From contig JADZCV010000044.1 in NCBI GenBank assembly GCA_020851375.1, positions 124,001-188,000 on the forward strand: 64,000 nt of DNA, given 5' to 3'. The stretch comes from Nitrospirota bacterium. GTDB lineage: Bacteria; Nitrospirota; 9FT-COMBO-42-15; HDB-SIOI813. Made by a program: the position numbers and the translations under genes. Below the pieces are notes generated by a model. That model saw nothing but the letters and a program-made list of their open reading frames with translations. It had not been told where the DNA came from and made no database searches. Each line of letters starts with the position of its first letter. Positions within the stretch are counted from its first letter, which is position 1. This document shows, in pieces, positions 3,042 through 37,606 of the stretch.

Positions 3042-4250
3042 TTATTCATACCGCAATGCTGTGATCGGATCCATCTGAGCCGCCCTGTACGCAGGATACA
3101 CGCCAAAGAATATCCCTACACATGCAGAAAAAAAAGTAGCCAGTGCAACAGCCCACGGTGTTACAACAGGCGGGATGTGGGGTAAAAACAGGCCGATTAT
3201 GATACCGCCTATGAATGCTATAAGTATGCCGATACCGCCGCCTATAAGGCTTAACATGATAGATTCAACAAGAAACTGAAGCAGGATGTCGCGTCTGGTT
3301 GCTCCGACCGCCTTTCTTATACCAATCTCCTTTGTCCTCTCTCTAACCGTAACAAGCATGATATTCATTATCCCTATACCGCCGACCAGTAATGAAATTG
3401 CGGCAATCCCTGCAAGAACAGATGAAAGGGTGTTCAGGATCGAGTCAAGGCTCGATAGCAGGGCACGCTGCGTAAGAATGGTAAAATCTTCTTTATCATT
3501 GTGTCTTTTTTTAAGGATCTTTGTTATCTGTTGGTTTGCCAGGTTCACCATAGCTGCACTGCGGGCCTTGGCCCTTATGCCAAATAACTTATCCGTGTTA
3601 AAGAGCCCCAATGAAGAAGATACAGGGATATATACAACATCATCCATGTCATCAGTACCCATGAATGTCCCCTTCTTCTCCATAATTCCTATGACCCTGT
3701 AGCCCGAGCCCCCGATCTTCACTATCTCACCAAGCGGATTCCTGCTGCCGAAGAGTTCATTCTTTACGGTATACCCTATTGCACAGACCCTGCGGGATGC
3801 ATCAACATCATCCCTTGTAAAATACCTTCCGGCGTCAATACCGATATTAATTACTGTTGTAAATTCCTGATCAGTCCCTACTATCATTACCTTTCTTTCC
3901 CTGTTTGCATACCTCACATCTGCCGTTCCTGCAGTTATAGAAGATACGGCTTCAAGGGCTGTTGCATGCCTGCGTAATGCCTCTGTATCACCAACCGTCA
4001 TCTTCTGAACGCCTTCCAATCCAGGGTGTCCCATACCCTGAGTCTCTGTCTTGCCAGGACTTATAATTATCAGGTTTGTCCCTATGCCCATAAATTGTTT
4101 GACCAGATATTCCCTGAATCCGGCAGTCATTGAGACAAGGAGGATTACAGAGCCTACGCCGATCATTATGCCAAGCATGGTCAGAAAGGCACGTATCCTG
4201 TTTTCCAGGATGGATGCAACCGCAATTCTGAGAAATTCAACAAGGCTCAC
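3042..4250 (-). CDS. MacB/LolC-like ABC transporter permease
   Basis: Inner-membrane subunit of a MacAB-type exporter, which uses ATP to drive export across the cell envelope; the substrate cannot be told from sequence. 402 residues: an N-terminal membrane segment (about 22-42) typical of MacB-type permeases, a large periplasmic core domain, then an FtsX-like domain with three membrane segments from about residue 280 to the end (motif RERTKEIGIRKAVGATRRDILLQF region). The start is GTG at 4250, nine bases after AGGAG; both lie in the end of the dispersed repeat that separates this gene from its ATPase. The gene follows the adaptor and ATPase on the same strand. Confidence 0.88.
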   Translation of the reverse strand: MSLVEFLRIAVASILENRIRAFLTMLGIMIGVGSVILLVSMTAGFREYLVKQFMGIGTNLIIISPGKTETQGMGHPGLEGVQKMTVGDTEALRRHATALEAVSSITAGTADVRYANRERKVMIVGTDQEFTTVINIGIDAGRYFTRDDVDASRRVCAIGYTVKNELFGSRNPLGEIVKIGGSGYRVIGIMEKKGTFMGTDDMDDVVYIPVSSSLGLFNTDKLFGIRAKARSAAMVNLANQQITKILKKRHNDKEDFTILTQRALLSSLDSILNTLSSVLAGIAAISLLVGGIGIMNIMLVTVRERTKEIGIRKAVGATRRDILLQFLVESIMLSLIGGGIGILIAFIGGIIIGLFLPHIPPVVTPWAVALATFFSACVGIFFGVYPAYRAAQMDPITALRYE

Positions 4251-4440
4251 CTGAAAATGCTCCTATTCACCTGTCATTCCCACGGAACCTGTCCCCGCAG
4301 GATTTTTCACCCCGTCATTCCCACGGAAGTGGGAATCCAGAATCTGGCCCCCGGTCTGGATTCCCGCTTATGCGGGAATGACGTTTTCATGAACCCTGGT
4401 GAGCCTGAGGCTCATGACGGTTCACTTGAAAATCTCCGTT
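4249..4440. repeat. GTCATTCCC/GGGAATGAC hairpin repeat, copy R1
   Basis: Contains GTCATTCCCAC...GTGGGAATCCAGA and TCTGGATTCCCGC...GCGGGAATGAC hairpin halves, flanked by a conserved tail that reads on the minus strand GGTGAATAGGAGCATTTTC and then AGGTGA. The tail provides the AGGAG and GTG start of the permease gene. The unit separates ATPase and permease in one operon. Related copies lie at 16884, 36728, 41115, 55745 and 63003. Confidence 0.85.
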
Positions 4441-4469
4441 CTTTCACTTCATTGCCCATCACCCGCTAC

Positions 4470-5168
4470 TCATTGCTTGTGTATAACATCTTCCACAATC
4501 CTGGCATCACGGATAAATATCCTCCGCCTCGCCTCATCAGCAATTTCAGGATTATGTGTAACCATGATTACCGTGACACCTTCCTCCTGGTTTAGCTTCT
4601 TAAAGAGCGCAATAATCTCCTCACCTGTCTTCGTATCAAGGTTTCCTGTAGGTTCATCAGCAAGGAGTATAGGCGGTTCATTTATCAGAGCCCTTGCAAT
4701 GGCCACTCGCTGGCACTCTCCGCCTGAAAGCTCATTGGGACGATGATGCATGCGCCCCTCAAGCCCCATCTTATTCAGCATTCGTGCAGCCTTATCCCTT
4801 CTTTCATCAGGTCCCACGCCCGAATATACAAGCGGGAGCTGGACATTGAAAAGCGCATTGTGTTTTGCCATGAGGTTGAACATCTGGAATACAAAACCTA
4901 TCTTCCTGTTCCTGATATGGGCAAGCCTCTCATCACTGAGGCTGGATATGTCCTCACCATCCAGCGTGTAAATGCCGGCTGAAGGACGGTCAAGACACCC
5001 GATAATATTCATCAGGGTGGACTTGCCGGAACCGGAAGGTCCAAGGATAGCAACAAACTCACCCCTGTCAATCTTAAGATTAATTTCAGCAATTGCATTA
5101 ACGTGAACCGTACCGGAACCATAGACCTTACTGACATTTTCAAGAGATATAAGTACAGCGCTACTCAT
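4470..5168 (-). CDS. MacB/LolD-like ABC transporter ATP-binding protein
   Basis: Cytoplasmic ATPase of the MacAB-like exporter. 232 residues with Walker A GPSGSGKST (43-51), Q-loop Gln95, signature LSGGE (147-151), Walker B ILLADE (167-172), D-loop GNLD and switch His in MVTHNPE. The spacing and the FNLM and ALFNVQLPL segments match the MacB/LolD subgroup. It starts ten bases after the adaptor gene stop, so the two are very likely co-transcribed. A repeat of about 200 bases separates it from the permease gene downstream. Confidence 0.92.
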   Translation of the reverse strand: MSSAVLISLENVSKVYGSGTVHVNAIAEINLKIDRGEFVAILGPSGSGKSTLMNIIGCLDRPSAGIYTLDGEDISSLSDERLAHIRNRKIGFVFQMFNLMAKHNALFNVQLPLVYSGVGPDERRDKAARMLNKMGLEGRMHHRPNELSGGECQRVAIARALINEPPILLADEPTGNLDTKTGEEIIALFKKLNQEEGVTVIMVTHNPEIADEARRRIFIRDARIVEDVIHKQ

Positions 5169-5178
5169 TGCTCATTAC

Positions 5179-6390
5179 TCATTGTTTTCGACTCATTGCC
5201 TTCGGCTCATTGCTGACCTTTACCCTCTTCCCTTCCTCCAGCCCTGCAACATCAAGTGAAGTAATGACCTCATCCCCTTCTGCAACACCTTCAAGTATCT
5301 CTATATTTTCCCAGCCTGAAATACCGGTCTGAACAGATTTCTTCTTTATCCTGCCCCCTGCAATGGTGTAAACAAATCTGACTGAATCCCTTTCTATCAC
5401 CGCATTTGTAGGCACTATAACAGCATCCCTCTTAGTCTCGAGGATTATCTCTGCATCAACAGAAGCGCCTACCGGCAGCCTCTCCTGATTTAACCGGCTA
5501 AAATTAATTTCTACATCCACGGTGCGGTTCTGCTCGGCTGTTTTCGAAACAACAGGCGAGACATACATCACACTGCCATAGAATGCCTTATCCGGACTGG
5601 CATCACTCGTCATTATTACCTTCTGATCGCGTTTTATCACCATAACATCCGTCTCATCAAAAGGGACTTCAACCTTTAAAACCGAGTCGTCTATCAACTC
5701 ACAGAACGGCTCTGTTTCAATAGTCGTGGCAACGTTAGCCTGGGAAACCATGCTTGTCTGACTGTTTAGATAATATTCAGGGAGTTCTCCTGCAGTGGCG
5801 TTCAGAAAGGATATAACACCATTAAAGGGTGCCCGGATGTTTGTCTTTTCAAGTCCTTCTTCCGCAAGCCTGATCCCGAGCCTCGCCTCATTCAGGGCAT
5901 TCTTTGCTATCTCATGTTCCTTCCCTGTCACTGTTAACTGGCTCTTTATCTCATCAAAGGTGCTGTCCGGCATAATTCCCTCATCAAACAGCGGCTTTGC
6001 CCTGTCAAAATTCTGCTTTGCCAGCCTGTACCTTTCCTCTGTTTCATGCAGCCTGAACTCTGCAGATGCAAGGGCATTCTTTCTTATTTCAAGATTGATG
6101 AGTGACTCCGCATCATCCAGTTTAACTATTACATCACCCTTTCTGACGCGATCACCTTCCCTGAAATTGACCTCTTTGACCTTTAGCGCAAGGAGGGGCT
6201 GAAGCTTTACACGCTGCAGCGGCTCTACAGAACCGCTCGACACACCTGTAATCGTCCTCTCAATAGACCCCTTTTTTACAACAAAGACGTGAACTTCAAT
6301 TATATTGCGGCGATAATATAAGAAGGCAAGCAGGGCGATAATGACAACTGTGATTCCAATATATAAGAGCCTTTTTGTCCGTGTAGTCAT
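5179..6390 (-). CDS. HlyD/MacA-type periplasmic adaptor subunit
   Basis: Membrane-fusion protein that links an inner-membrane exporter to an outer-membrane channel. A single N-terminal membrane anchor (LLYIGITVVIIALLAFLYY) precedes a biotinyl-lipoyl-like barrel half (VKEVNFREGDRVRKGDVIVKL), a long heptad-rich hairpin of about 90 residues, then the second half and beta-barrel domains. The frame can be opened further upstream at a TTG (6441) that overlaps pheT. I prefer ATG 6390 because it places the anchor a few residues from the N-terminus, giving 403 residues; neither start has a strong ribosome site. It sits directly after pheT on the same strand and before the ATPase. Confidence 0.85.
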   Translation of the reverse strand: MTTRTKRLLYIGITVVIIALLAFLYYRRNIIEVHVFVVKKGSIERTITGVSSGSVEPLQRVKLQPLLALKVKEVNFREGDRVRKGDVIVKLDDAESLINLEIRKNALASAEFRLHETEERYRLAKQNFDRAKPLFDEGIMPDSTFDEIKSQLTVTGKEHEIAKNALNEARLGIRLAEEGLEKTNIRAPFNGVISFLNATAGELPEYYLNSQTSMVSQANVATTIETEPFCELIDDSVLKVEVPFDETDVMVIKRDQKVIMTSDASPDKAFYGSVMYVSPVVSKTAEQNRTVDVEINFSRLNQERLPVGASVDAEIILETKRDAVIVPTNAVIERDSVRFVYTIAGGRIKKKSVQTGISGWENIEILEGVAEGDEVITSLDVAGLEEGKRVKVSNEPKAMSRKQ

Positions 6391-6421
6391 ACCGTAATTG
6401 TCATTTGATTGTGTTTGGCAA

Positions 6422-8122
6422 CTATAACTGGCAAAGTGCAAGGACTTTGTCTATGTCTATTTCGCAGGCGCTGCATGGCGAATGTATTTCCCATTCAGTC
6501 AGCACCTTTGGATGTATCTCTCCTATCATGCCTATGACATCCCCGCCTGCATGTATCCATCCCATTCTCCCCTGAATAAAGGAGGGGTGGTCTCCGGGCA
6601 CAAGCCTGTAATCCATCTGGAGATAGTACATCAGGGTTTCGAGGATTGAATGGATCTCGGAGAAATTTGCGGTGTGATGGGATATCAGGGCAGCGCACTT
6701 TACAACTGTTTTGCTTGAGAGGTTTTTTGTCTCATCAAATACAGCAACCTCTCCTGCCTCAAATATCCTGTGCGGATAGAAGCTCTCACTGCTTGCTGAC
6801 TCAGCCCTCAGCAAAGACGGCAGGATCCAGTGCCTCAGCACTGAATAGCTGAGTGACATTATATTATCCACCTCAATGACCCTCTCTTCACCAAGCCCCA
6901 TCTTATATAGATTGTCTTCCCTCGAAGTCAGTATGTTCGAGATAATTTCCTGGAATCCTGCACCAACCATATATCCCCTGATCCTGTCAGAGAACTTCTC
7001 ACTCTCAGACAGGGCGCCTACTGTCATCCTTGAAGGCATAACAGGCCTGAAGCTTCCGTACCCCCGGCTTATGGCAATATCTTCGCACAGGTCAACAGGG
7101 TGCATGATGTCATCCCTGTATGGCGGGGGGGTAACATGCAGCATATCACCATCTATCTTTACCCAAAGGCCATAGCTGTCAAGCAGGTTCGAAATGTCTT
7201 CCGCCTTCAGTTTCTCTCCAATTACCCGTTCAGCATCATTAACATTTATGGAAATGTGTTCTGCAAAATCACACGGGATGCTTATGTCCCTGCCGAATTC
7301 CGTATCATAGGGGTACCTGACATCAACCATGTCTATCCGTGCGCCCCGGTCATAGAGGTTCACCGACAGGATATTCAGGACCAACAACACCAGCCTGATA
7401 TCTGTGCCGGTAACTTCTACAAACAACTCGCTATCCCCTGCCTTTACCTCGCCAACCTCCCTGCTGTTGATTACAGGCGGGAATGAGAGTACACTCCCCC
7501 TGCTGTCAATAAGTACGGGGTACTCACGCATCCCTTTTAATATATCTCCATAAGCCTGGCCCTTGGGGTGCTTCTCAAGTATTTCCTGCAAAGTCATCTC
7601 TTCATCAAATCCGAGCGGCGTAAATCTCATATCCTCCGGCCCAACGGCCTTATAGTGCACCGGGAAGGTTATCCTGGCAAGGTTGTATATCCCGATTGAA
7701 ATCCTCCTCCTCTTGCTGCCGAATATTTCTGATATCTTCTCCTGCGTCTGGATCATCTGGACCAGCATCTCTTCATCAACAGTAACACCTGTGGCAATAA
7801 AACCACCTACATAGGGGCGTATCCTGTTCATTGCTTCAGATACTATTATCACACCGCTTTTGTCACAACCGTCAGAATAGAAAAATTCATAATCCCTCCA
7901 TGAGGAGGTCAGCTTCCCCTTAATCTGCCGTGCAATCCCCTCACAGCACCAGAGGTCGGGCCTGTTGCTGTCACTCAACTCAATCTTAAGCTCATCAGTC
8001 CCGGACTCATAACCCTTCAGTTCACCCTTTACAAGCTGAAGGTGATGCTCAAGGTCATGGAGGGGAAAAGACATGCCTGTGAGATGCTCAAGATCTTTCT
8101 TTTTTATACTTATAGTTGGCAT
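6422..8122 (-). CDS. pheT: phenylalanyl-tRNA synthetase beta subunit, archaeal/eukaryotic type
   Basis: Beta chain of the alpha2-beta2 enzyme that charges tRNA-Phe; it carries the editing (B3/4) site and helps bind tRNA. It has 566 residues, the length of the archaeal and eukaryotic form rather than the roughly 800 of ordinary bacterial PheT, and lacks the N-terminal EMAP-like tRNA-binding domain and the C-terminal anticodon-binding domain. It starts MPTISIKKKDLEHLTG. Archaeal-type segments seen include DSNRPDLWCCEGIARQIKG, RRRISIGIYNL, a PPVINS segment and PPPYRDDIMHPVDLCEDIAI. It follows pheS on the same strand after a repeat-filled gap of 137 bases. Confidence 0.93.
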   Translation of the reverse strand: MPTISIKKKDLEHLTGMSFPLHDLEHHLQLVKGELKGYESGTDELKIELSDSNRPDLWCCEGIARQIKGKLTSSWRDYEFFYSDGCDKSGVIIVSEAMNRIRPYVGGFIATGVTVDEEMLVQMIQTQEKISEIFGSKRRRISIGIYNLARITFPVHYKAVGPEDMRFTPLGFDEEMTLQEILEKHPKGQAYGDILKGMREYPVLIDSRGSVLSFPPVINSREVGEVKAGDSELFVEVTGTDIRLVLLVLNILSVNLYDRGARIDMVDVRYPYDTEFGRDISIPCDFAEHISINVNDAERVIGEKLKAEDISNLLDSYGLWVKIDGDMLHVTPPPYRDDIMHPVDLCEDIAISRGYGSFRPVMPSRMTVGALSESEKFSDRIRGYMVGAGFQEIISNILTSREDNLYKMGLGEERVIEVDNIMSLSYSVLRHWILPSLLRAESASSESFYPHRIFEAGEVAVFDETKNLSSKTVVKCAALISHHTANFSEIHSILETLMYYLQMDYRLVPGDHPSFIQGRMGWIHAGGDVIGMIGEIHPKVLTEWEIHSPCSACEIDIDKVLALCQL

Positions 8123-8140
8123 CTAAAAACTCCGGTTTTA

Positions 8141-8236
8141 CCTGAAAATCCCCGTTCAAATCCCCCCTGTCCCCCCTTTACTAAAGGGGGGTAATGACTC
8201 CCCCTTTGAAAAAGGTGGACCAAGGGGGGATTTTCA
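8141..8236. repeat. dispersed CCCCCTTT/AAAGGGGG repeat (pheS-pheT spacer)
   Basis: Carries CCCCCCTTTACTAAAGGGGGG and CCCCCTTTGAAAAAGG hairpins and the AAATCC ends of the family. It occupies nearly all of the spacer between pheS and pheT, two genes whose products are needed in equal amounts. Confidence 0.85.
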
Positions 8237-8259
8237 TCGTCCTTTATGAACCCCTTGCT

Positions 8260-9825
8260 CTACACCCACTGTACGCGCTTTGTCCTGATCATATCAAGGT
8301 CGCCTGAGAACAGGTCTCTTATGTCATGAATCTCCAGCGCCACCATTGCCATCCTGTCGAGGCCGAGCCCCCATGCTATTACCGGGACATTAACACCGAG
8401 CGGAATGGTAACCTCAGGTCTGAATATCCCTGCCCCGCCAAGCTCCATCCAGCCGAGCTTCGGATGTTTGACATGAAGCTCCACTGACGGCTCGGTGAAT
8501 GGAAAGTATGCAGGCAGGAACTCTATCTCCTTTGCCTTTGCAACCTCCACTGCAAACAGCTCGAGCAGTCCGAGCAGTGTGCGGAAATTGATGTCGTCGC
8601 CAAGGACTATCCCTTCTATCTGAAAGAAGTCCTGTGCATGCGTGGCATCCACCTGCTCATACCTAAAACATCTTGCTATGGAAAAATACTTGCCTGGGAT
8701 CTTCGGGCCGCCGGCAAGGGTTCTTGCTGATACTGCCGTTCCCTGACTCCGCAGCATGAGCCGCTTTGCCTTCTCTATGTCAAAGTGATACTTCCAGCCC
8801 CGTGAGCCTGTGCCGCCTCCTGAGTAGTGTGCCTCTGACACCCTTGTCCGGAATGGTTCTTCTATCTCTCCTGATAATCCGGGTTCCTTTACATAATAGA
8901 CATCGTGTATGTCCCTTGCAGGATGGAATTGCGGCATATAGAGGGCATCCATATTCCAGAACTCATTCTCAACAAGTCCCCCCCTCATCTCCTCAAATCC
9001 CATTGCAACAAACTTGTATTTTACATTGTCGAGGAATTCCCTGTAAGGATGTTTTCTGCCCGGGGGTACCCTCGGCGGCGGCAGTGAGATGTTGTATTTC
9101 CTGAATGACTTACCTTCCCACGAGCCGTCTTTCAACATCTGTGGAGTCAACTGGGAAATCTCACCAACAGGATTCCCCTTCTGCAGTACTGCACTGTGGA
9201 TATCAGCCCCGTTGTCTGTCAGGAGATAGGTACGGTTTGTCTTTTCATTGATCCTGAATATCCCCTTGGACTTCCCCCTCTTTCTGTGCAACCCTTCTAT
9301 GACCGTCTGTTCATCATCAGACAACTCATTCAGCCTGATCTCACTTTTGCCTTTCACAAGATCTATCAGCCTCTGAATATCCTCAAACTCTGATATTAAC
9401 GCTGCATCGCCCATTTCAAGACGGCCGCCTGCTGCAATCCTGATTATCCCCTTTTCCTTAAGAAGACCTACGGCAGAGCTTACCTCAGCCGGCTCAATAT
9501 CATCGCGCCCTTTGACATCCGACATGCTGTATGCAGGGTTTTCCTTCACAGACTGAAAGATCCTTAGTTCCGGTATCCTGATGTCCGAATATCTATCCCC
9601 TGTCTCAGTAAGGACAACAGAGCGTTCCACGGTTTCGCTGGCAACAGTCAGAATGCCCTTTGCAAGCAGCCACCCTATGGCCATATCTTTTTGCGACGGC
9701 TCTATTGATGCCTCTTTGATCAGGTTATCATCATCAACAGCCTTACCTGCCACAAAGGCAAAGAGGAGCTTTGTCTCAAGCGGGTGCAGGCTGTCAACTA
9801 TATTATTCAGGTCTTCTGCATTCAT
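8260..9825 (-). CDS. pheS: phenylalanyl-tRNA synthetase alpha subunit, archaeal/eukaryotic type
   Basis: Catalytic alpha chain of PheRS. The 521 residues are far longer than bacterial PheS (about 340). The N-terminal 200 residues hold the winged-helix DNA-binding-like repeats of the archaeal and eukaryotic enzyme. The class II core has RCFRYEQVDATHAQDFFQIE, AYFPFTEPSVE, and the C-terminal motif 3 ELGGAGIFRPEV followed by VIAWGLGLDRMAM, all close to the archaeal consensus. The gene overlaps the end of rpe by four bases (ATGA), so it is translationally coupled to a carbon-metabolism gene. Spirochaetes are a known example of bacteria with this PheRS type. Confidence 0.94.
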   Translation of the reverse strand: MNAEDLNNIVDSLHPLETKLLFAFVAGKAVDDDNLIKEASIEPSQKDMAIGWLLAKGILTVASETVERSVVLTETGDRYSDIRIPELRIFQSVKENPAYSMSDVKGRDDIEPAEVSSAVGLLKEKGIIRIAAGGRLEMGDAALISEFEDIQRLIDLVKGKSEIRLNELSDDEQTVIEGLHRKRGKSKGIFRINEKTNRTYLLTDNGADIHSAVLQKGNPVGEISQLTPQMLKDGSWEGKSFRKYNISLPPPRVPPGRKHPYREFLDNVKYKFVAMGFEEMRGGLVENEFWNMDALYMPQFHPARDIHDVYYVKEPGLSGEIEEPFRTRVSEAHYSGGGTGSRGWKYHFDIEKAKRLMLRSQGTAVSARTLAGGPKIPGKYFSIARCFRYEQVDATHAQDFFQIEGIVLGDDINFRTLLGLLELFAVEVAKAKEIEFLPAYFPFTEPSVELHVKHPKLGWMELGGAGIFRPEVTIPLGVNVPVIAWGLGLDRMAMVALEIHDIRDLFSGDLDMIRTKRVQWV

Positions 9826-10490
9826 CTGAGAATCCTCTTCCTCATCTCCTCAATTGTCTTCTTGTAATCCTGAGTCCCGAATACACCTGACCCTGATACA
9901 AACATATCAGCGCCGGCAGACGCAACCTCTGCTATATTGTCCAGTTTTATCCCTCCGTCAACTTCAAGGTATGCCCTGGAACCAGCCTTATCAAGCATCC
10001 GCCTTGCCTCCCGTATCTTCTCCATGGCAAATGGAATAAACTTCTGACCGCTGAAGCCAGGATTGACCGACATGATAAGCAGCAGGTCAATATCTTCAAT
10101 TACGCATCCGGCCATAACAAGGGGGGTTGAAGGATTTAAGGACACACCAGCCTTCTTCCCCTTCTCCCTGATATACTGGATAGTCCTGTGCAGATGAATT
10201 GCTGCCTCGACATGCACAGTAATTATGTCCGCACCTGCATCGGCAAATGCAGATATGTAGTCATCAGGCCCCTCAATCATCAAATGGACATCGAGCGGCA
10301 GCGACGTCGCCTTACGGACTGCTTCAACAACGAACGGCCCGACAGTGATATTGGGGACAAAATGTCCGTCCATCACATCTATGTGGACCAGATCAGCCCC
10401 TGCATCCTCTATCTTCTTAAGCTCCTCACCTAATTGCACAAAATCAGCAGAAAGGATAGACGGAGCTATTTTTATCTCCTTCATGGCCAT
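9822..10490 (-). CDS. rpe: ribulose-phosphate 3-epimerase
   Basis: Interconverts ribulose 5-phosphate and xylulose 5-phosphate in the pentose phosphate and Calvin pathways. A TIM barrel with all family motifs: APSILSADF, HIDVMDGHFVPNITVGP, DVHLMIEGP, LIMSVNPGFSGQKF (metal-binding Asp/His region) and LEVDGGIK. The frame opens at 10526, but the family N-terminus fits the ATG at 10490 (MAMKEIKIAPS), giving 222 residues; ATG 10484 is equally possible. It is the first gene of the minus-strand run into pheS, pheT and the exporter, and is divergent from the acyltransferase gene. Confidence 0.93.
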   Translation of the reverse strand: MAMKEIKIAPSILSADFVQLGEELKKIEDAGADLVHIDVMDGHFVPNITVGPFVVEAVRKATSLPLDVHLMIEGPDDYISAFADAGADIITVHVEAAIHLHRTIQYIREKGKKAGVSLNPSTPLVMAGCVIEDIDLLLIMSVNPGFSGQKFIPFAMEKIREARRMLDKAGSRAYLEVDGGIKLDNIAEVASAGADMFVSGSGVFGTQDYKKTIEEMRKRILR

Positions 10491-10551
10491 AATATAAAAA
10501 CACAAGCGCCATTCAAAGTCAATCAAAGGGTAAAACCCTGTATAAATTTCC

Positions 10552-10580
10552 TTGACGCCTGAAATTCCGGATAGTAGAAT
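10552..10580 (+). promoter_or_regulatory. sigma70-type promoter for the MBOAT gene
   Basis: The -35 TTGACG (10552-10557) and -10 TAGAAT (10575-10580) are separated by exactly 17 bases and lie in the divergent gap upstream of the acyltransferase. The predicted start near 10587 leaves a leader of about 37 bases. Confidence 0.65.
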
Positions 10581-10623
10581 GGGCTATAAGACACCGATTT
10601 TCCTGTAGAATATTGAATGCTTC

Positions 10624-16883: not shown

Positions 16884-17023
16884 ATGAAAACGTCATTCCC
16901 GCGGAAGCGGGAATCCAGACCGATGGCATGATTCTGGATTCCCACTTACGTGGGAATGACGGGGTGAAAAATCCTGCGGGGACAGGGTCCGTGGGAATGA
17001 CGGGTACATAGGAGCATTTTCGA
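16884..17023. repeat. GTCATTCCC/GGGAATGAC hairpin repeat, copy R2
   Basis: GTCATTCCCGCG...CGCGGAAGCGGGAATCCAGA, a matching second half GATTCTGGATTCCCAC...GTGGGAATGACGGG, and a GGGACAGG segment, ending in ATAGGAGCATTTTCGA directly before a GTG start. It fills the gap between the glycosylase and HIT genes. Confidence 0.85.
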
Positions 17024-17509
17024 GTGAAGCAGATATGGGCGCCGTGGAGACTTACTTACATACTGGAAGGAAATAGAGAGGAGTGTATCTTCTGCGCAAA
17101 GCCAAAGGAAGAAAAAGACAGGGACAACCTTATCCTGTTCAGGGGAAGGCACTCATTTGTTATAATGAATCTCTACCCGTATGGCAATGGACATCTTATG
17201 GTAGTTCCCTACGAACATGCACGGGAATTGAACGGGCTGTCAGAAGACACCCTGCTTGACCTGATGCTCCTGACAAGGAAGTCTGAGGGCATCCTCAGAA
17301 ATGTATTTCAGGCGCAGGGATTTAACATAGGCATAAACCTTGGCAAGGCAGCCGGCGCAGGCATAGATGAACATCTTCATATTCACATAGTGCCGAGATG
17401 GGCAGGAGACACCAACTTCATGCCGGTGCTCGCTGACATAAAGATTATACCTCAGCACATTTTTGCGACCTATGACCTGCTTATGCCATTTTTCCGGGAA
17501 CAAGGCTGA
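17024..17509 (+). CDS. HIT-family nucleotide hydrolase or phosphorylase
   Basis: 161 residues. The histidine triad HLHIHIVPRW (His 117, 119, 121) and a CIFC pair (Cys21, Cys24) that probably binds zinc match the Ap4A-phosphorylase-like branch of HIT proteins, which cleave dinucleoside polyphosphates or nucleoside phosphoramidates. GNGHLMVVPYEH is the other conserved block. The start is GTG 17024, nine bases after AGGAG, both supplied by the upstream repeat; the family N-terminus (MKQIWAPWR) begins exactly here. Confidence 0.92.
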   Translation: MKQIWAPWRLTYILEGNREECIFCAKPKEEKDRDNLILFRGRHSFVIMNLYPYGNGHLMVVPYEHARELNGLSEDTLLDLMLLTRKSEGILRNVFQAQGFNIGINLGKAAGAGIDEHLHIHIVPRWAGDTNFMPVLADIKIIPQHIFATYDLLMPFFREQG

Positions 17510-25819: not shown

Positions 25820-25850
25820 TGCGCAAGTCCTCCTTATCTGATTAGCACAT

Positions 25851-25972
25851 CTGAAAATCCCCGTCCAAATCCCCCCTCCCCCCCTTTACTAAAGGGGGGG
25901 AACTAATTTCCCTTTGAAAAAGCGGGGAACTAATTTCCCCCTTTGAAAAAGGGGGACTAAGGGGAATTTTCA
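25851..25972. repeat. dispersed CCCCCTTT/AAAGGGGG repeat
   Basis: Three hairpin halves: CCCCCCTTTACTAAAGGGGGG, a decayed CCCTTTGAAAAAGCGGGG and CCCCCTTTGAAAAAGGGGG, ending ACTAAGGGGAATTTTC. It lies between phosphomannomutase and the guanylyltransferase. Confidence 0.85.
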
Positions 25973-25979
25973 TCAACCT

Positions 25980-26045
25980 TTGCAAGCCCTGAGCTGTGAG
26001 CGTGCCGAACAGTCGAAGGGCTCATGACGGTTCACTCAGAAATGT
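25980..26045. repeat. GAGCCCT...AGGGCTC repeat
   Basis: AGCCCTGAGCTGTGAGCG, a GTCGAA-like element and GAAGGGCTCATGACGGTTCAC. An almost identical block is at 55897-55950, where it is joined to the GTCATTCCC repeat. Confidence 0.7.
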
Positions 26046-27531: not shown

Positions 27532-27694
27532 TCAAATCCCCCCTCCCCCCCTTTAATAAAGGGGGGAGCTGATTTCCCTCCTTTATACAGAGAAGAATTA
27601 CTTTCCTCCTTTGTAAAGTGTGGGAGCTGATTTCCCTCTTTTATGCAGTGAAGAATTACTTTCCCCCTTTGTAAAGGGGGACTAAGGGGGATTT
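27532..27694. repeat. 163-bp direct repeat, left copy
   Basis: Matches 28812-28974 at a constant offset of 1280 bases with only four mismatches. It is built from CCCCCTTT/AAAGGGGG family hairpins joined by AGCTGATTTCCCTC and GAAGAATTACTTTCC linkers. Its right end touches the stop codon of the aminotransferase gene. Confidence 0.92.
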
Positions 27695-28797
27695 TACCTG
27701 CCTGCATAAAACTCCTTCACCTTCTCAATCACGTAATCCTGCTCATCCTGTGTAATAAACGGCGACATGGGCAGGGACAGGATTCCCTTCGATGTCTTCT
27801 CGCTTACCGGAAAAGCGCCTTCCCTGTAACCCAGATAGCTGAATGCCTCCTGAAGATGCAATGGCTGAGGATAGTGAATTGCCGTAGGCACCCCATTGTC
27901 ATTGAGGTATTTGCTCAAGGCATCCCTTTTATCTGACATGACAGAATACTGGGCATATACTGAGGTATTGTACGGCTCTATATACGGTGTTACTACTGCA
28001 TCTTTCAGCCCCTCACTATAATATGCACCCTTTTGTTGTCTCAGCTTAACCTCTTCATCAAGATGCTTAAACTTGGCCAGCAGAACCGCTGCCTGTATAG
28101 CATCAATCCTTCCATTGATGCCTATATATTTGTGCTGATACCTCTTAATCTCTCCATGAACGTGCAGGCTGTTGATGATACCTGCAATTTCCTGATTGTC
28201 TGTAAAGACCATCCCGGCGTCGCCATATGCGCCAAGAGGCTTTGACGGAAAAAATGAGGTGACACCAATGTCCGGCAGGCCGCACGACCTCCGCCCCCTG
28301 TATGTAGCACCAAATGACTGGCATCCATCTTCAATTACGAACAACCCCCTTTGCTTCGCAATAGTATATATAGCATCCATGTCTGCAACCTGACCGTAGA
28401 GGCCAACGGGGATAATACCTCTTGTCTTTTCAGTAATTTTTGCTTCAATAAGGGATGGGTTTATATTGTAAGTCCTTTCATCAATGTCAACGAACACTGG
28501 CTTCGCGCCAAGAAGGGCTATGACCTCTGCAGTTGCTATAAAGGTAAACGGAGGGCATATAATCTCGTCACCGCTTTTGACTCCATAGGCCATGAGTCCA
28601 AGAAGAAGGGCATCTGTACCTGAGCTTACACCTATTCCAAAACGGACGCCCACATAGGCGGCAAGCTGTTTCTCGAGTTCAGCAACCTTGCTGCCAAGGA
28701 TAAACTGGGTACTCTCAAGCACCTCTGAGATTTCCCTGTCAATATCTGACTTATACTTGATATACTGGCTTTTAAGGTCTATGAAATTTATCTTCAT
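27694..28797 (-). CDS. DegT/DnrJ/EryC1/StrS family sugar aminotransferase
   Basis: PLP-dependent enzyme that transaminates a nucleotide-linked keto sugar. 367 residues from ATG 28797 (MKINFIDLKSQY, the family N-terminus; an upstream TTG at 28815 is less likely). The PLP-binding lysine is Lys186 in SFFPSKPLGAYGDAG; SSGTDALLLGL, FTFIATAEVI and EDGCQSFGA are the other PLP contacts. The likely product is an amino sugar for a surface glycan, but the substrate is not evident: no dehydratase besides Gmd is close. It is tightly bracketed by two nearly identical 163-bp direct repeats. Confidence 0.92.
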   Translation of the reverse strand: MKINFIDLKSQYIKYKSDIDREISEVLESTQFILGSKVAELEKQLAAYVGVRFGIGVSSGTDALLLGLMAYGVKSGDEIICPPFTFIATAEVIALLGAKPVFVDIDERTYNINPSLIEAKITEKTRGIIPVGLYGQVADMDAIYTIAKQRGLFVIEDGCQSFGATYRGRRSCGLPDIGVTSFFPSKPLGAYGDAGMVFTDNQEIAGIINSLHVHGEIKRYQHKYIGINGRIDAIQAAVLLAKFKHLDEEVKLRQQKGAYYSEGLKDAVVTPYIEPYNTSVYAQYSVMSDKRDALSKYLNDNGVPTAIHYPQPLHLQEAFSYLGYREGAFPVSEKTSKGILSLPMSPFITQDEQDYVIEKVKEFYAGR

Positions 28798-28811
28798 CCA
28801 ATAATCCCCGA

Positions 28812-29245: not shown

Positions 29246-29268
29246 GCTGCATCTCCTTTTAAGATAGA

Positions 29269-30086: not shown

Positions 30087-30089
30087 TGA

Positions 30090-31136: not shown

Positions 31137-31143
31137 TTTTGCA

Positions 31144-32190
31144 CTAATCCCTCTTCCACCATTTATGCGGATATACCTCTCTTAACATCCTGTCTCCTTC
31201 ACCTTTTGGCTCAACACCCAACTCTCTCATGTCAGCATCCACCATGATCTTTGCGAGCATGGAAAAGTCAACCTTTGGCTCCCACCCCAGTGCCCCTTTT
31301 GTCCTTGCCGGGTTGGCCTTGAGCACATCTACCTCTGTAGGCCTGAAATATTTTGGGTCTATCTTTACATGCTCCTTCCAGTCCAGACCAGCATAGCTGA
31401 AGGTCTCTTCTACAAATTCCCTTACTGAATGGGTCTCCCCAGTCCCTACAACAAAATCACCAGGCTTGTCATGCTGGAGCATTAGATATATGCACTCCAT
31501 ATACTCTGGGGCAAATCCCCAGTCCCTTTTTGCCTCAAGATTGCCTAAATAGAGATATTTCTCTTTCCCGGCAACTATGTTTGCTATTGCCCTTGTGATC
31601 TTTCTTGTAACAAATATCTCCCCGCGCCTCGGTGACTCATGGTTAAACAATATCCCATTGGATGCAAATAAATTGTATGCCTCACGGTAGTTGACCACCA
31701 TCCAGTAGGCATAGACCTTTGCCGCTGCATAGGGGCTCCTCGGATAAAAGGGTGTATCTTCTGCCTGGGGAGGAGGGGCAGCCCCGAACATCTCACTGCT
31801 CGATGCCTGATAGAATCTTACGCTGTTGCCGCTGCGTCTGATCGCCTCCAGTAACCGGGTAGTGCCCAGGCCGGTGATATCCCCTGTATACTCCGGCATA
31901 TCAAAACTAACCCTGACATGGCTCTGCGCACCAAGGTGATAGACCTCATCTGGCTGGATGTTGTATATAAAATGCGTGATCTGCCCTGCATCAGAGAGGT
32001 CTCCATAGTGGAGGAAGAGCCTGGCTGCAGGATCATGAGGGTCTACATAGATATGGTCTATCCTGCCGGTATTAAACGTGCTCGCCCTCCGTATCAACCC
32101 ATGAACCTCATACCCTTTTGACAGCAACAGCTCTGCCATATATGATCCATCCTGACCTGTAATCCCGGTCACCAATGCTTTTTTTGGCAT
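31144..32190 (-). CDS. gmd: GDP-mannose 4,6-dehydratase
   Basis: Converts GDP-mannose to GDP-4-keto-6-deoxymannose. 348 residues from ATG 32190, which has AAAGGA eight bases upstream; an in-frame GTG six bases earlier is possible. Seen: [30 protein letters not shown], the catalytic SSSEMFG and Tyr-x3-Lys in [12 protein letters not shown], and [17 protein letters not shown], specific for this dehydratase. The upstream gap is AT-rich. Together with manB, manC and fcl in this window it completes the route from fructose 6-phosphate to GDP-L-fucose. Confidence 0.95.
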
Positions 32191-32252
32191 AATCACGTCC
32201 TTTCAATTAATATCATTTAGAATCAATAAAATACAAAGCAAATTACATACCA

Positions 32253-34505
32253 TTAATCGGTTCTGCCGTTCATCAATATTCCAAAACCAGGGGCACCGCA
32301 GGGAACCTCCCCGTTACCACCCTCCTGACCTCCGCTGTCACTCAGGGATGATTCTTTGCCGTATTTGTCATAAAGGATGCCGATGCTTCCGCAGGTTGCA
32401 GCCCCTCTTGACAGGACGCCGCCTTTGAAGGTATTGTCCCCGTCAAAATCAGCCAGGACACCTGTGCCATAGTCGTGCCCTGCGCCCTGTGAGACACCGA
32501 AGGTTACAGTGTAGGAATCTTTTCCCCTTTCATCAATCAGGATCCCTGCTGACGTATGTATCCCTGCACCCTGTGCATATCTGCCTGCAATATATGTGTC
32601 ATCTCCACTCATGTCATGGAGAATGCCCAGCGAGTACCAGTAACTCGCACCCTGGGAAAAATAGTCACCTATATATTTATCATTTCCGTCCTTATCAATC
32701 AACAGACCAATGCCGCCTGAGGCGCCTGTTTCTGACTCGTTCGGACGTATCCCTATGGCGAAACCCTGCGACAGGCTCAGTGTGGAGTATCCCGGCTCTC
32801 TGTAGTCAGGATACTTACCCCCGGCAAGGTAAAGATCTCCTCCTTTCAGGTCTATCAAAGCCCCGAATCCCCTGACAGAGGCGAACCCCTGCGATTTCAC
32901 ATGGGACTCATATGTGTCGTTTCCCTGCATATCGAGAAGCATACCTATGCCGAAGATGCCAGCCCCTTCTGCAACAGCGTCTGCCATATATATATCATCC
33001 CCGTGAAGATCAAGCAGGATTCCTCCCCCCAATATGCCAGCCCCCTGGGAAACCCTGTCAGCCATATAAAGGTCATTTCCCTCAATATCCGCCAGTATGC
33101 CCGTTCCCATAAACCCTGCCCCCTGGGATATGTTCTCCCTTGTAATGTACCGGTCATTGCCGGCGAGGTCTATCGTGATACTGAAAGGGTATTCGATCGT
33201 GGATCCCCCTGCATTGTTTTCATACACATCGTCGCCGCCAAAGTCTATAATCATAAAGGCATTGCCTATATAACGGGTACTGCCCGGGCCTCCAACAATA
33301 ATCCTCCCAAAGACCGAATCTATCATGTCGAGGACATCGCCTTCGGCAACATCAGGAGACACTGTATTGTGCCTTTTGATTGCCCCGGGATTTAACTTCT
33401 TCAAGGCCTCTATCACCTGAGGCGATACTGCTTTTGAAGCCTCAACCACAGATCTTAATAACATCGCGAAGTCCACCTTTCCGGCGACTTCAAGCAGCCT
33501 TTCCTGAAGCTCAGGGGCCTCTTTATCCTCTGATAAGATACCCAGCACCTTCTCTTCCAGGAATTTCCTGTCTTCCCCTGACAGCCCCTTAAAGGACTCC
33601 TGTCTATAATACTCTGCCCTGGAAATCGTCTCAGTAATATAGCCTAATATCCCGTCAAGGCTGCCCATAGCCCGAGGATCCTCAGGCCCGCTTTTTACTT
33701 CAACATCAAGCAGCAGTGAAGCCTCTTCAATTAAACCGTTCAGATCGCAGGCATCACCTGAGATGTGACTGAGGACAGAGGCCGTAATTTCCCTGGATAC
33801 AGGAAGGATATTGGTTGGATTTTGTAAAAGATAATTGATCTCACTCAAACGGAAGGAATTGTCGTGCGCCAACTTATCGCTATCAGGGAAAAAGCTCTGC
33901 TCCCTGAGCTGCGCCAGCGTAGTCTGGAAATCCTGCAGTCTGCCGGAATCCTCCATCATATGATAAACAGCAGAGCTGGTCTTATCCATTGTTTTCTGCA
34001 TCGCATCTGTCTCCGGGTGAGGCTTAATCTTCGGTGCAATTTTCCTCCTTACTCCAGGCCTTGCCCCTATGCTCATCTCTTTGCCGTCCCTGATGATGGT
34101 CAACATCAGGTTGTCTCCTCTATTCTTCCCTGTTATAGCCTTTTTCAACTGATCCATTGGTGGAGTCTTATCATCAAAAAGTTCCCCATCAGCGGCAATT
34201 ACAATATCCCCGGGCTTCATGCCTGCCTCTGCCGCAGCGCTGTCAGGTATAATACGATCAATATACACGGCTTTATCCTTCCTGACCGGGTCAGAGAGAT
34301 ATTGATCAGGCACAACCTCCATATGAACTCCGAGGAAGGGTGCTTTTGGTTCCTGCCGGACATCCTCTGTCGCAGGGAAAAAGAAGGGATTAAAGTCAGA
34401 CATCACATTTCCGCTGGTTCGAAGGGCTTTTTGCGTGCAACCGCAGGCGCCAATCAGGGCAACTGCGAGAGTGGCATGGATAATTTTATATTTCAGGTTT
34501 TTCAC
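32253..34505 (-). CDS. PDZ-domain lipoprotein with GDDxY-type tandem repeats
   Basis: 750 residues, function unknown. N-terminal lipoprotein signal with lipobox LIGAC or GACGC near residue 21. Residues about 50-140 form a PDZ domain (YIDRIIPDSAAAEAGMKPGDIVIAADGE). A helical middle region (about 150-410) has no family I recognise. From about 415 to the end there are roughly ten repeats of 22-34 residues with the pattern SQGAGxxGxGILxDxxGNDxY, for example GAGILGGGILLDLHGDDIYM. Regular Gly-Asp-Asp-x-Tyr turns suggest a stacked beta structure, possibly calcium-binding. It is divergent from a GT2 gene and downstream of none of the sugar genes. Confidence 0.8.
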   Translation of the reverse strand: MKNLKYKIIHATLAVALIGACGCTQKALRTSGNVMSDFNPFFFPATEDVRQEPKAPFLGVHMEVVPDQYLSDPVRKDKAVYIDRIIPDSAAAEAGMKPGDIVIAADGELFDDKTPPMDQLKKAITGKNRGDNLMLTIIRDGKEMSIGARPGVRRKIAPKIKPHPETDAMQKTMDKTSSAVYHMMEDSGRLQDFQTTLAQLREQSFFPDSDKLAHDNSFRLSEINYLLQNPTNILPVSREITASVLSHISGDACDLNGLIEEASLLLDVEVKSGPEDPRAMGSLDGILGYITETISRAEYYRQESFKGLSGEDRKFLEEKVLGILSEDKEAPELQERLLEVAGKVDFAMLLRSVVEASKAVSPQVIEALKKLNPGAIKRHNTVSPDVAEGDVLDMIDSVFGRIIVGGPGSTRYIGNAFMIIDFGGDDVYENNAGGSTIEYPFSITIDLAGNDRYITRENISQGAGFMGTGILADIEGNDLYMADRVSQGAGILGGGILLDLHGDDIYMADAVAEGAGIFGIGMLLDMQGNDTYESHVKSQGFASVRGFGALIDLKGGDLYLAGGKYPDYREPGYSTLSLSQGFAIGIRPNESETGASGGIGLLIDKDGNDKYIGDYFSQGASYWYSLGILHDMSGDDTYIAGRYAQGAGIHTSAGILIDERGKDSYTVTFGVSQGAGHDYGTGVLADFDGDNTFKGGVLSRGAATCGSIGILYDKYGKESSLSDSGGQEGGNGEVPCGAPGFGILMNGRTD

Positions 34506-34619
34506 TGTCTCAGCGTTCTATTTTCCTGCTATTGTTTTTTATATCATAACAATAAGCGGCATGGGGGGCAACTTAAGCTGTAACCCCCTGCCGGCAGGTC
34601 ATACCATGGTTTTTCTAAA

Positions 34620-34648
34620 TTGACCTTTATTATCATATAGGTTAACAT
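34620..34648 (+). promoter_or_regulatory. sigma70-type promoter, possibly leaderless
   Basis: TTGACC (34620-34625), 17 bases, TAACAT (34643-34648). The -10 ends ten bases before the GT2 start codon at 34659 and no ribosome site is present, so a transcript from it would have almost no leader. Confidence 0.5.
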
Positions 34649-34658
34649 ACAATTCATT

Positions 34659-35546
34659 ATGAATCCTGGTCAATCAGTATCCGTTGTTATCCCGGCAATG
34701 AATGAGGAAAAGGGCATCGGGAAGGTTATTAAAGGAGTTAAAAATATCCTGGGAGGAAACTGTGAGGTCATCGTTGTAAACGACGGTTCTAAAGACGGCA
34801 CTGAGAAGGCAGCGCTTGAGGCTGGTGCAACCGTCGTTAGCCATCCATATAATCTTGGAAACGGCGCAGCAGTTAAAAGCGGCCTGCGTGCAGCAAAAGG
34901 GGACATAATCGTTCTCATGGATGCTGATGGCCAGCACAAACCTGAAGACATACCAAGGCTTCTTGAACAGATTGGCCCCTATGAAATGGTAATCGGGGCA
35001 CGGACAAGTCAGTCTGAGACATCTGTTCACAGGGATATTGCCAATTCCATATATAACAGATTTGCAAGCTATCTTACCAAGAGAGAAATACCGGACCTTA
35101 CTTCCGGATTCAGGGCAATTAAGGGAAAGATTGCAAAGCGATTTATATACCTGCTGCCAAACACCTTTTCTTATCCGACCACCCTTACACTCTCGCTGAT
35201 CAGGTCAGGACATAGTGTTACCTTTGTCCCTATTGTGGCACTAAAGAGGGAAGGCAAGAGCAAGATCAAGCTTCTCAAGGATGGAATCAGATTTTTCATG
35301 ATCATGCTCAAGATAGCAACGCTTTTTTCGCCTTCAAGGGTCTTTCTTCCTGTAAGCGCCTCCTTCTTTGTTGTCGGCATAGGATATTATATTTACACAT
35401 TCGTAACCACTCAGAGGTTTACAAACATGTCTGCGCTCCTGATTGGAAATGGTGTAATCATCTTTATGATGACCCTTATTGCCGAGCAGATAGCCCAGCT
35501 GCGGTTAGACCGGACAGAGGAATCGGAACAGGAAAATAAACTCTGA
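34659..35546 (+). CDS. GT2 family glycosyltransferase (dolichyl-phosphate mannose synthase-like)
   Basis: 295 residues. GT2 domain with VVIPAMNEEKGIGKVI, the VVNDGSKDGT nucleotide site, DADGQH metal motif and RTSQSETSVHRDIAN; then two C-terminal membrane helices (about 230-280). This layout fits polyprenyl-phosphate sugar synthases, which make lipid-linked sugars on the inner face of the membrane for GT-C enzymes such as the GT39 proteins further along. Sugar unknown. It begins a plus-strand run of glycan genes. Confidence 0.9.
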   Translation: MNPGQSVSVVIPAMNEEKGIGKVIKGVKNILGGNCEVIVVNDGSKDGTEKAALEAGATVVSHPYNLGNGAAVKSGLRAAKGDIIVLMDADGQHKPEDIPRLLEQIGPYEMVIGARTSQSETSVHRDIANSIYNRFASYLTKREIPDLTSGFRAIKGKIAKRFIYLLPNTFSYPTTLTLSLIRSGHSVTFVPIVALKREGKSKIKLLKDGIRFFMIMLKIATLFSPSRVFLPVSASFFVVGIGYYIYTFVTTQRFTNMSALLIGNGVIIFMMTLIAEQIAQLRLDRTEESEQENKL

Positions 35547-35566
35547 AACAAGGGAAAAGCTGGAAA

Positions 35567-36712
35567 TTGCGGGTTTGTTATTTCGGTACCTACTCACTTG
35601 AAGAAGGGTATCCCAGAAACAGGGTGATCATTGAAGGCCTCAGCAAGAACGGCATAGATGTTGTCGAATGTCATGAAGACCTCTGGGGCGGGACTTCAGA
35701 TAAACTTGCAGGCATTCAGGATGGTTTTTCCATCATCACGAAGCTCCTGCGGATCCTGCAGGTCTATTTCAGGCTAATCATTAAATACAGGGGTATCGGG
35801 AAACACGATGCCATCATTGTTGGTTATGCCGGCCATATAGACATATTTCTGGCAAAGTTACTGAACCTATTTAAAAGAAAACCCCTGATCTTTGATGTCT
35901 TCCTTTCAATATATGATACTGCAGTCGTAGACAGGGCAATAGTGCCATCAGGGTCTGTCAGGGCAAAACTGCTCCATATGACAGATGCGTGGTCCTGCTG
36001 GATTGCCGATGCAGTCTTGCTGGATACTCCTGCCCATATTGACTATTTTGTCAGTGAATTCAGCCTGCCTGCCGGGAAATTTCATGCAATACCCGTTGGC
36101 TCCTCGCTCCCTGTCAATAATACAAGCGGCCTTTCTTCAAGCAAGAACAATAAATTTACGGTCCTCTATTTCGGGTCTTATATACCTTTGCATGGGGTGG
36201 ATATTATCCTTAAGGCAGCAGGGATGCTTCAGGAAACAGATAATGGAACGGTTGGATTCACCCTTGTGGGAACCGGACAACTCCTGCCTGAGATGAAGGG
36301 GCTGGCCACAGGACTTGGGTTAAAGAATGTCACTTTTATAGACAGGTTTGTAAAAGAGTCTGAACTCGCAGGCCTTATCAGTAATGCTGATATCTGCCTT
36401 GGAATTTTCGGTAAGAGCGATAAGGCATTGAGGGTTATTCCGTGCAAGGTGTATAACTGTCTGGCAGCAGGAAAACCACTTATTACAGCAAGAACATTAG
36501 CTACAGACAGTGTCCTTACACACAATAAAAATGTATACTTTTGTGATCCCGGTGATCCGGCGTCGCTGGCAAAGGCTGTGCTTGCGTTAAAGGATAATGA
36601 ATCACTCAGAAATAAGATAGCGCAAAACGGTATGACGTATTTTAATAATAACTTTTCTGCTGATGCAATTGGCAGGAAGGTTGCAGAAATTATACAAGGC
36701 ATTGCAGATTGA
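35567..36712 (+). CDS. GT4 family glycosyltransferase
   Basis: 381 residues with a GT-B fold: N-terminal RVCYFGTYSLEEGYPRNRVI, C-terminal donor domain with VLYFGSYIPLHGVDIILKAA, the ADICLGIFGKSDKALRVIPCKVYN stretch and GKPLITARTLA. The E-x7-E motif common in GT4 is partly changed. The start is a TTG 20 bases after the GT2 stop, with AAGGGA upstream; the first strand of the fold begins at once, so no later start fits. The likely role is transfer of one sugar to a lipid-linked intermediate. Confidence 0.88.
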   Translation: MRVCYFGTYSLEEGYPRNRVIIEGLSKNGIDVVECHEDLWGGTSDKLAGIQDGFSIITKLLRILQVYFRLIIKYRGIGKHDAIIVGYAGHIDIFLAKLLNLFKRKPLIFDVFLSIYDTAVVDRAIVPSGSVRAKLLHMTDAWSCWIADAVLLDTPAHIDYFVSEFSLPAGKFHAIPVGSSLPVNNTSGLSSSKNNKFTVLYFGSYIPLHGVDIILKAAGMLQETDNGTVGFTLVGTGQLLPEMKGLATGLGLKNVTFIDRFVKESELAGLISNADICLGIFGKSDKALRVIPCKVYNCLAAGKPLITARTLATDSVLTHNKNVYFCDPGDPASLAKAVLALKDNESLRNKIAQNGMTYFNNNFSADAIGRKVAEIIQGIAD

Positions 36713-36727
36713 ACCTGATTAAACCAG

Positions 36728-36856
36728 GCTTATGAAAACGTCATTCCCGCGTAAGCGGGAATCCAGACCGAGGCTTGATTCTGGATTCCCACTCCCCGCT
36801 TAAATCCTGCGGGGACAGGTTCCGCGGGAATGACGGGTATACAGGGGCATTTTTGG
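36728..36856. repeat. GTCATTCCC/GGGAATGAC hairpin repeat, copy R3
   Basis: GTCATTCCCGCGTAAGCGGGAATCCAGA, GATTCTGGATTCCCAC, a ATCCTGCGGGGACAGG segment and GGGAATGACGGGTATACAGGGGCATTTTTGG directly before a GTG start codon. Confidence 0.85.
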
Positions 36857-37606
36857 GTGAAAAAACATATTCAAACCATCGGTAGTGTGGAAAAACAGGG
36901 ATCGGCTTACAGGAATTACCTCAACAGGGTCGTTGGCGGGAAATCATGCCTTGACCTGCTTCGCTACGAGTTGATCACAGGTTTGTTAGGGGGGATACCG
37001 GGCGCTGCAGGCACGTTTCTTCGTTTGTACTGTTATCGCTTTATTATGAACCTGACTGGCAGGGTTTTCCTCGGCAAAGATATATCCATCCGGTGTCCTG
37101 GAAATATTACCGTCGAAGAGGGGTGTTTTATTGATGATGCCGTACGTCTGGATGCAAAGACAGGCGGCAGTGGTTACATACGAATACGTAAACACTCTGT
37201 AATAAGGTCCTTTACGCTGATATCCACAGGCGGGGACGATGGTTTTGTGGACATTGGGGCTAATTGTTTTATTGGTCAGGCATGTCAGCTTCATGGGTAT
37301 GGAGGCATTAAGATCGGCAACAATGTACTTCTCGCAGGGCAGGTCTTTGTGACTGCCTCAAGTCACGTCACTGCGAGGGTTGATGTCCCTATCAAGGATC
37401 AGGGGATTACAATCGAAGGGGTTGAGATAGGCGATGGGTGCTGGATTGGCGCCGGGGTTACTATTTTGGATGGCGTAAAAATAGGAGAGGGTTCTGTTGT
37501 TGGCGCAGGGGCTGTGGTTACCGGCAGTATACCCCCTTTTAGTGTTGCAGTCGGAATTCCTGCAAGGGTAATCCAGGAAAGATCGGAGAGCATCAGTGGC
37601 AAATAA
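36857..37606 (+). CDS. left-handed beta-helix acyltransferase
   Basis: 249 residues from GTG 36857. Hexapeptide-repeat coils are clear in the C-terminal half (IDIGANCFIGQACQL, IGNNVLLAGQVFVTASSH, IGDGCWIGAGVTILDGVKIGEGSVVGAGAVV), typical of sugar O- or N-acetyltransferases such as colanic acid WcaF-like enzymes. An ATG at 36830 opens the same frame but lies inside the repeat; GTG 36857 has AGGGG nine bases upstream and matches the spacing in two other repeat-started genes. It overlaps the methyltransferase gene by 11 bases. Confidence 0.87.
   Translation: MKKHIQTIGSVEKQGSAYRNYLNRVVGGKSCLDLLRYELITGLLGGIPGAAGTFLRLYCYRFIMNLTGRVFLGKDISIRCPGNITVEEGCFIDDAVRLDAKTGGSGYIRIRKHSVIRSFTLISTGGDDGFVDIGANCFIGQACQLHGYGGIKIGNNVLLAGQVFVTASSHVTARVDVPIKDQGITIEGVEIGDGCWIGAGVTILDGVKIGEGSVVGAGAVVTGSIPPFSVAVGIPARVIQERSESISGK

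Follow-up and report, generated by a model that had tools for sequence, protein, structure and literature searches.

Dispersed repeats of a Nitrospirota genome end in a translation start signal and probably rebuild the start codons that they enter

Introduction

Gene starts are sites that mobile elements as a rule either avoid or damage. Some integrative elements restore the gene that they enter, as at tRNA attB sites and in the case of SXT at prfC. The repeats described here resemble these elements in carrying a copy of part of their target with which the gene is restored, but they are multi-copy repeats of 100-600 bp that supply a generic translation start, and not one specific gene end.

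Several small bacterial repeats are also related in structure. Published REPs of the CGTC type, which include dRS3 of Neisseria, lie mostly at the 3' ends of ORFs and at varying distances from the next start (PMC3733652). GTAG-type REPs have ends that provide a TAG stop codon (PMC3733652); there, as here, a repeat terminus doubles as a translation signal, although in our case it is a start signal with a Shine-Dalgarno (SD) sequence and lies at most terminal copies. Bacterial MITEs such as the QMITEs of Coxiella, which affect the 3' ends of functional genes, share with our elements a short, non-coding and dispersed form, imperfect TIRs (here TGAAAA...TTTTCA) and contact with ORF ends (PMC5896051). 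In the IS200/IS605 group the left end adjoins a target tetranucleotide, the right end closes with a final tetranucleotide, and a guide lies on the 5' side of the hairpin foot (PMC6006769). Our elements resemble IS200/IS605-derived elements and REPtrons in their hairpin ends, in insertion 3' of a tetranucleotide that also closes the right end, and in needing no target duplication (PMC6006769, PMC8266576); they differ in having no linked Y1 gene and in a target preference that spans SD and spacer. In open papers, an incomplete coverage of the literature, we found neither an earlier description of start-rebuilding elements nor a reported MITE that regenerates a start codon with its end.

The analysis started from a stretch of 64,000 nucleotides (the window, C44:124001-188000) in the draft genome (2.50 Mb, 49 contigs) of an uncultivated bacterium whose closest named relatives are Nitrospirota MAGs, e.g. 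RBG_16_43_11.

Results

The initial annotation had claimed that one dispersed repeat supplies the ribosome site and GTG start of three genes in the window, and its description is exact: nine bases separate the SD from GTG at the permease (AGGAG-CATTTTCAG-GTG; 4250, minus), the HIT gene (AGGAG-CATTTTCGA-GTG; 17024) and the acyltransferase (AGGGG-CATTTTTGG-GTG; 36857). Judged from sequence, the acyltransferase could possibly start instead at an in-frame ATG (36830) that likewise lies inside the repeat. The fourth copy had been described as having an in-frame GTG and a better site downstream. The better site exists, and is likely GTG 41301 behind GGAGG, but the tail codon is GTT and the in-frame GTG (41226) lies upstream of AGGAG. 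Copies at 55745-56085 had been regarded as not lying next to a start, which holds for the internal tandem unit at 55945 and fails for the copy at 55746, which has TTG 55732 13 nt downstream. The gene beyond the element at 25848..26031 has its own downstream SD and ATG. Table 1 lists these and other elements of the window; in addition, a partial CGTC REP dimer without a tail lies between genes at window positions 63031-63098.

Table 1. Elements, tails and adjoining genes, in window coordinates (a slash marks an insertion junction).
Feature	Position	Strand	Basis
MacB/FtsX-type ABC permease, starts on tail GTG	3042..4250	-	profile match from residue 4
3' tail GGAGCATTTTCAGGTGA; start GTG = 4250-4248	4247..4263	-	sequence
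Composite element: left module ACCGTCATGAGCC..., CGTC-REP dimer and tail; ends at permease start	4247..4421	-	sequence
CCCCCTTT-type element ahead of gene 6422-8122; its tail GGGGATTTTCAGGTAA has lost the start codon	8138..8237	-	
Old HIT start context ATGA, preceded by AAGG; left end of element	16884..16887	+	empty site of L153/G001, GGGGAATGATTAA / ATGAAACAACTATGG
HIT element: REP dimer and tail GGAGCATTTTCGAGTGA	16888..17027	+	
HIT-family protein (VKQIWAPWR...), starts on tail GTG	17024..17509	+	
Left module and CCCCCTTT-type body after GTGA (26035-26032); truncated tail CAGATGTG	25848..26031	-	
Tail CGGGGATTATTGGATGA of CCCCCTTT-type element; ATG 28797 = likely start of gene 27694-28797	28794..28810	-	
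Old acyltransferase start context ATGA, preceded by CCAGG	36732..36735	+	sequence
Acyltransferase element with tail GGGGCATTTTTGGGTGA	36736..36860	+	
Hexapeptide acyltransferase, starts on tail GTG; alternative in-frame ATG 36830 inside repeat	36857..37606	+	
Element, start codon of tail lost (CAGGTTA, 41233-41249); gene likely starts further downstream	41116..41249	+	
Tandem unit 1; its tail precedes by 13 nt a TTG start (gene 54179-55732) with own GGGGGG	55746..55944	-	
Tandem unit 2; internal tail, no gene	55945..56115	-	

Genome-wide, the AGGAG-N9-GTG-A tail forms the 3' terminus of a composite element that resembles REPs and MITEs. Matches to GGAGCATTTTCAGGTGA with up to two mismatches number 110 in the 2.5-Mb genome and the reversed control gives 0; two other tails are present, a related one (GGAGTATTTTCGAGTGA) and a third (CGGGGATTTTCRGRTGA) on CCCCCTTT-type repeats. 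The parts follow one another in the order RTGA / AACnnTCATG-hairpin-CACAAAGG...ATGAAAA / REP body / GGRGNATTTTCRG-RTGA / gene. The body in this genome is a CGTC-type REP dimer with the pattern CGTCATTCCCGCG-N-AAGCGGGAATCCAG...CTGGATTCCC...GGGAATGACG. Like CGTC REPs, it is a head-to-head CGTCATTCCCGCG...GGGAATGACG dimer in high copy, and no dedicated transposase is known for either (PMC3733652). The marks of that class (CGTC tag, stem of 8-9 bp with AT first, CCA tail, head-to-head dimers) are found in the body only, not in the tail or left module. One further difference is the fixed 3' tail, by which an SD and a start codon come to lie on the downstream gene; another is that sister genera have a different repeat as body. 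Typical MITE features are likewise present: the elements are short, non-coding and multi-copy, with TGAAAA...TTTTCA and TGAAAATCCCC...GGGGATTTTCA ends read by eye. With regard to target-site duplication, TGA flanks the elements on both sides but is part of a fixed target, and no parent transposon with the same ends was found. A repeat body, rather than a gene, comes next after 52 of the 54 left modules in this genome. The left module looks like an SD-ATGA and was considered as a second start donor, but was rejected because the 54 copies yield no gene start, with one exception; the open frame of that lone case runs through the repeat body itself. Rfam 15 covariance models matched only the tRNA in the window and no known RNA family for the element, so a known structured RNA was likewise rejected.

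The same composite tail was not found among 84,980 GTDB species genomes, own genome excluded. Exact copies of the 18-mer tail number 64, 28, 20, 10 and 8 in five genomes of the family and 2 each in four others; among the remaining 246 Nitrospirota genomes they occur in a few, mostly at single sites. A search for viral carriage gave only single matches per contig and no multi-copy contig.

To what extent the tails mark gene starts was assessed in stretches covering ∼0.55 Mb of the 2.5-Mb MAG draft, which is not a closed genome. There we read 154 repeat tails, 43 of which lead into another repeat unit and 111 of which are terminal. An ORF of at least 80 aa begins exactly on the tail RTG in 75 of the 110 terminal tails that leave room for an ORF, compared with 1 and 8 in the other frames; this is also contrary to the 3'-end location of CGTC REPs. 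The remaining terminal tails comprise 22 with a same-strand start at most 70 nt away, often with its own SD, and 13 without any start. For comparison, simple gene calling over this single 64-kb window places starts at 14 of 130 non-coding RTGA sites that lie outside repeats, and at 6 of 46 such RTGAA sites (∼11-13%). Against an expectation of 13%, the excess at terminal tails is about five-fold (binomial P∼2×10−40), and the frame and reversed-pattern controls rule out a chance origin. The genome-wide enrichment that the initial annotation had proposed as a check is found. In line with its view that the signal belongs to the repeat, the tail is retained in the 43 internal copies and in the 13 terminal ones that have no gene.

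Composition at these starts is biased. The start codon is GTG in 55 and ATG in 18 of the 75 tail-started ORFs, and RTGA is followed by A in 71 of them, giving Lys (50) or Asn (21) as second codon, as predicted by insertion after RTG-AA. Selection from GTG to ATG after insertion was considered, since ATG is found in 18 of 75 tails at gene starts and in 1 of 43 internal copies (Fisher P 0.001). We do not claim such selection, because terminal copies without a gene start also have ATG more commonly (7 of 36) than internal copies do.

Several features suggest that the tail RTGs are true starts. In 51 of the 75 gene-start tails an in-frame TAG (of TAGGAG) lies 15 nt upstream of RTG and thus makes a longer start impossible, and an upstream in-frame start is possible in 23, including the acyltransferase. 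When HemC, PanE, QueC, AroK, HisB, CysS, PanB, GatB, IspD, Tgt, Alr, RdgB and BioD are read from the tail RTG, their alignment to curated profiles begins at residues 1-7, such that any later start would remove conserved sequence. The genes are real (HIT, HemC, GatB, CysS, HisB, IspD and others), housekeeping ones included, and ribosomes would initiate at the tail RTG. In the predicted fold, the HIT leader as RNA forms strong hairpins (z -5.3), with the SD placed in a weak stem. Separately, most tails, including that at window positions 16990-17027, contain a ATGACGGGTACTTAG-type mini-ORF that ends in a TAG overlapping the tail SD (TAGGAG) and is a possible re-initiation leader.

The opposite ends of the elements show a similar motif. 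In 50 elements the leftmost junction closes with TGA (48/50, 47/50 and 49/50 at the three positions), matching the RTGA of the tail, and their consensus, GG-N-ATTTTC-R-G-R-TGA, is tail-like. This motif may in part represent decayed older insertions and hence be inflated; the left flank at aroK contains one. The few exceptional, non-RTGA junctions are CTAA, CAGAGA and GTAA. Both the permease and acyltransferase inserts retain SD-RTGA at the left end, and a native-like start, CGGAG-ATTTTCAA-GTGA, is kept left of the permease element (4422-4438).

Orthologous loci are empty or differently filled. At HIT, the junction in our genome (G000) reads ...ATGTAAGGTATCATGA / 140 bp...GGAGCATTTTCGAGTGA / AGCAGATATGG, with the old ATGA on the left and the new GTGA on the right. 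A congener (G001/L153) and several other relatives have an empty site in which ATG directly follows the upstream gene (...GGGGAATGATTAA / ATGAAACAACTATGG; TGATTAA / ATGAAACAA). Different repeats lie between TAATGA and GAGTGA in G002, and a CCCCCTTT element lies between GTATGA and ACATGA in G005/L156. Because insert-free relatives start HIT with ATG and have no AGGAG-N9-GTG, the signal arrived with the element and not by descent, in agreement with the initial annotation. Three different bodies occupy the hemC start in G000, G002 and G003, and in G003 and G004 TTTTCARATGA stands at aroK with no body attached.

In other genera of the family this tail recurs on hairpin bodies of unrelated sequence, likewise at start codons. 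The bodies are GTAG-type REPs (GTAGGGACAGACC...GGTTTGTCCCTAC) or CCCTCTCCCC repeats in G006, and CCCCCTTT or CCCTCTCCCC repeats in G003. Testable tails start ORFs in 13 of 27 cases in each of these genomes, against 0 and 5 in the other frames together. Three further observations concern element form. A CCCCTTT-type hairpin with a GGGGGATTTTCAGRTGAA tail occurs also in other families of the phylum, in some cases at gene starts (L361, L365-L371). A nearly body-less element (L082:2032-2120), whose left module is joined directly to AAATCAGGTGA, is an internal deletion form. Finally, one element (L018:1517) was apparently inserted between the arms of an inverted repeat (GCGACTATTTATCGG and CCGATAAATAGTCGC), in its loop, which suggests a single-stranded target.

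An intact matching transposase was not found in the genome, in which the sole Y1 gene is a RAYT fragment. Intact RAYTs of relatives (L230, L236, L224) are not flanked by these repeats. A RAYT was therefore rejected as local mobiliser. The Y1 match at L139:1030-1890 consists of an N-terminal RAYT fragment that continues in frame into an Rhs-like linker and a Tlde1_dom domain. The L230 RAYT has long TIRs of its own (GGGGTCAGGTCTTGAAAT), and ∼100 nt ahead of the gene lies a CGTC REP dimer.

Discussion

These data make it probable that short non-autonomous elements insert 3' of RTGA, end in a copy of their target, and so regenerate a start or overlapping stop. Behind this reading stand the anatomy of the junctions, the enrichment at starts with its frame and codon bias, the orthologous sites that are empty or differently filled, and the recurrence of the tail on other, unrelated bodies in sister genera. 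The elements would insert immediately 3' of RTGA, with a preference for RTGAA in SD-like surroundings, and would thus mostly enter genes that begin with Met-Lys or Met-Asn and RTGA junctions at which stop and start overlap. The original start or stop would stay on the left, and the 3' end of the element, GGRG-N-ATTTTCRG-RTGA, would act as the target copy. With SD and RTG-A in frame at the right end, the downstream protein would be unchanged except for ATG to GTG. The mobile translation-initiation cassette of the initial annotation thus gains support, mobility being suggested by dispersed copies, nested arrays and empty sites. Its account is refined in one respect: as read from sequence, the element would sit on existing RTG-A starts and rebuild them, since it ends in a copy of the start motif that it enters, rather than donate starts to random genes.

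We consider survivorship the strongest competing account, though a considerably less probable one. Insertion might occur randomly at any RTGA, with intragenic copies purged and those at starts surviving through the restoring tail. Starts would tolerate an element with an SD-RTGA end, and the 942 intragenic RTGA sites per window are hardly occupied. Nonetheless, starts make up ∼13% of non-coding RTGAA sites and 68% of terminal tails, and insertions with gene-less tails also show a TTTTCRGRTGA-like left junction. Selective loss of harmful insertions elsewhere could still account for part of the enrichment.

For targeted insertion, the chemistry would presumably be a cut 3' of RTGA, perhaps by a single-strand HUH enzyme of the IS200/IS605 or RAYT kind acting in trans. 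RTGA would flank the left end and close the right, as in the IS200/IS605 rule (PMC6006769). As guide, the first hairpin would offer TCA(T) at its 5' foot. Consistent with this possibility, RTGAAmCnnYCATG-hairpin is retained with different stems in three genera, YCA(T) is kept at the left hairpin foot in all three, and the bodies are REP-like (PMC3733652). On the other hand, the right-end guide is inconsistent, the target motif exceeds a tetranucleotide, no linked transposase was found, and the inner TIR-like TGAAAA/TTTTCA would fit a DDE MITE as well. Because the search yielded no cognate enzyme, only the truncated RAYT, we hold the HUH step tentatively, as a minority prospect.

Very unlikely is a third reading, in which a native, conserved RBS specific to the lineage makes up the tail and the hairpin repeats have only inserted upstream of it: body-less TTTTCARATGA at aroK and tail-like RBSs that occur singly in other families of the phylum speak for it, but internal and gene-less copies keep the tail, repeat-free HIT orthologues lack it, and the old ATGA persists at the insert's left end.

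On balance we favor, with less assurance than the insertion model itself, a lineage-wide group of start-codon-targeting elements with constant ends (RTGA / AACnnTCATG-hairpin and GGRGNATTTTCRG-RTGA) and interchangeable hairpin cargo, such that a sizeable share of Met-Lys and Met-Asn genes, essential ones included, would be started from transposon ends. Such an element would make the start codon itself a safe harbour. As the element's own end repeats its target (SD, U-rich spacer, RTGA), operons and essential genes could be entered with stop and start intact. This would account for the oddly high frequency of GTG starts immediately behind REP arrays, and would offer annotators a marker of true starts. 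It would also provide a natural experiment in which sequence-generic 5' leaders can be set against the expression of dozens of unrelated genes.
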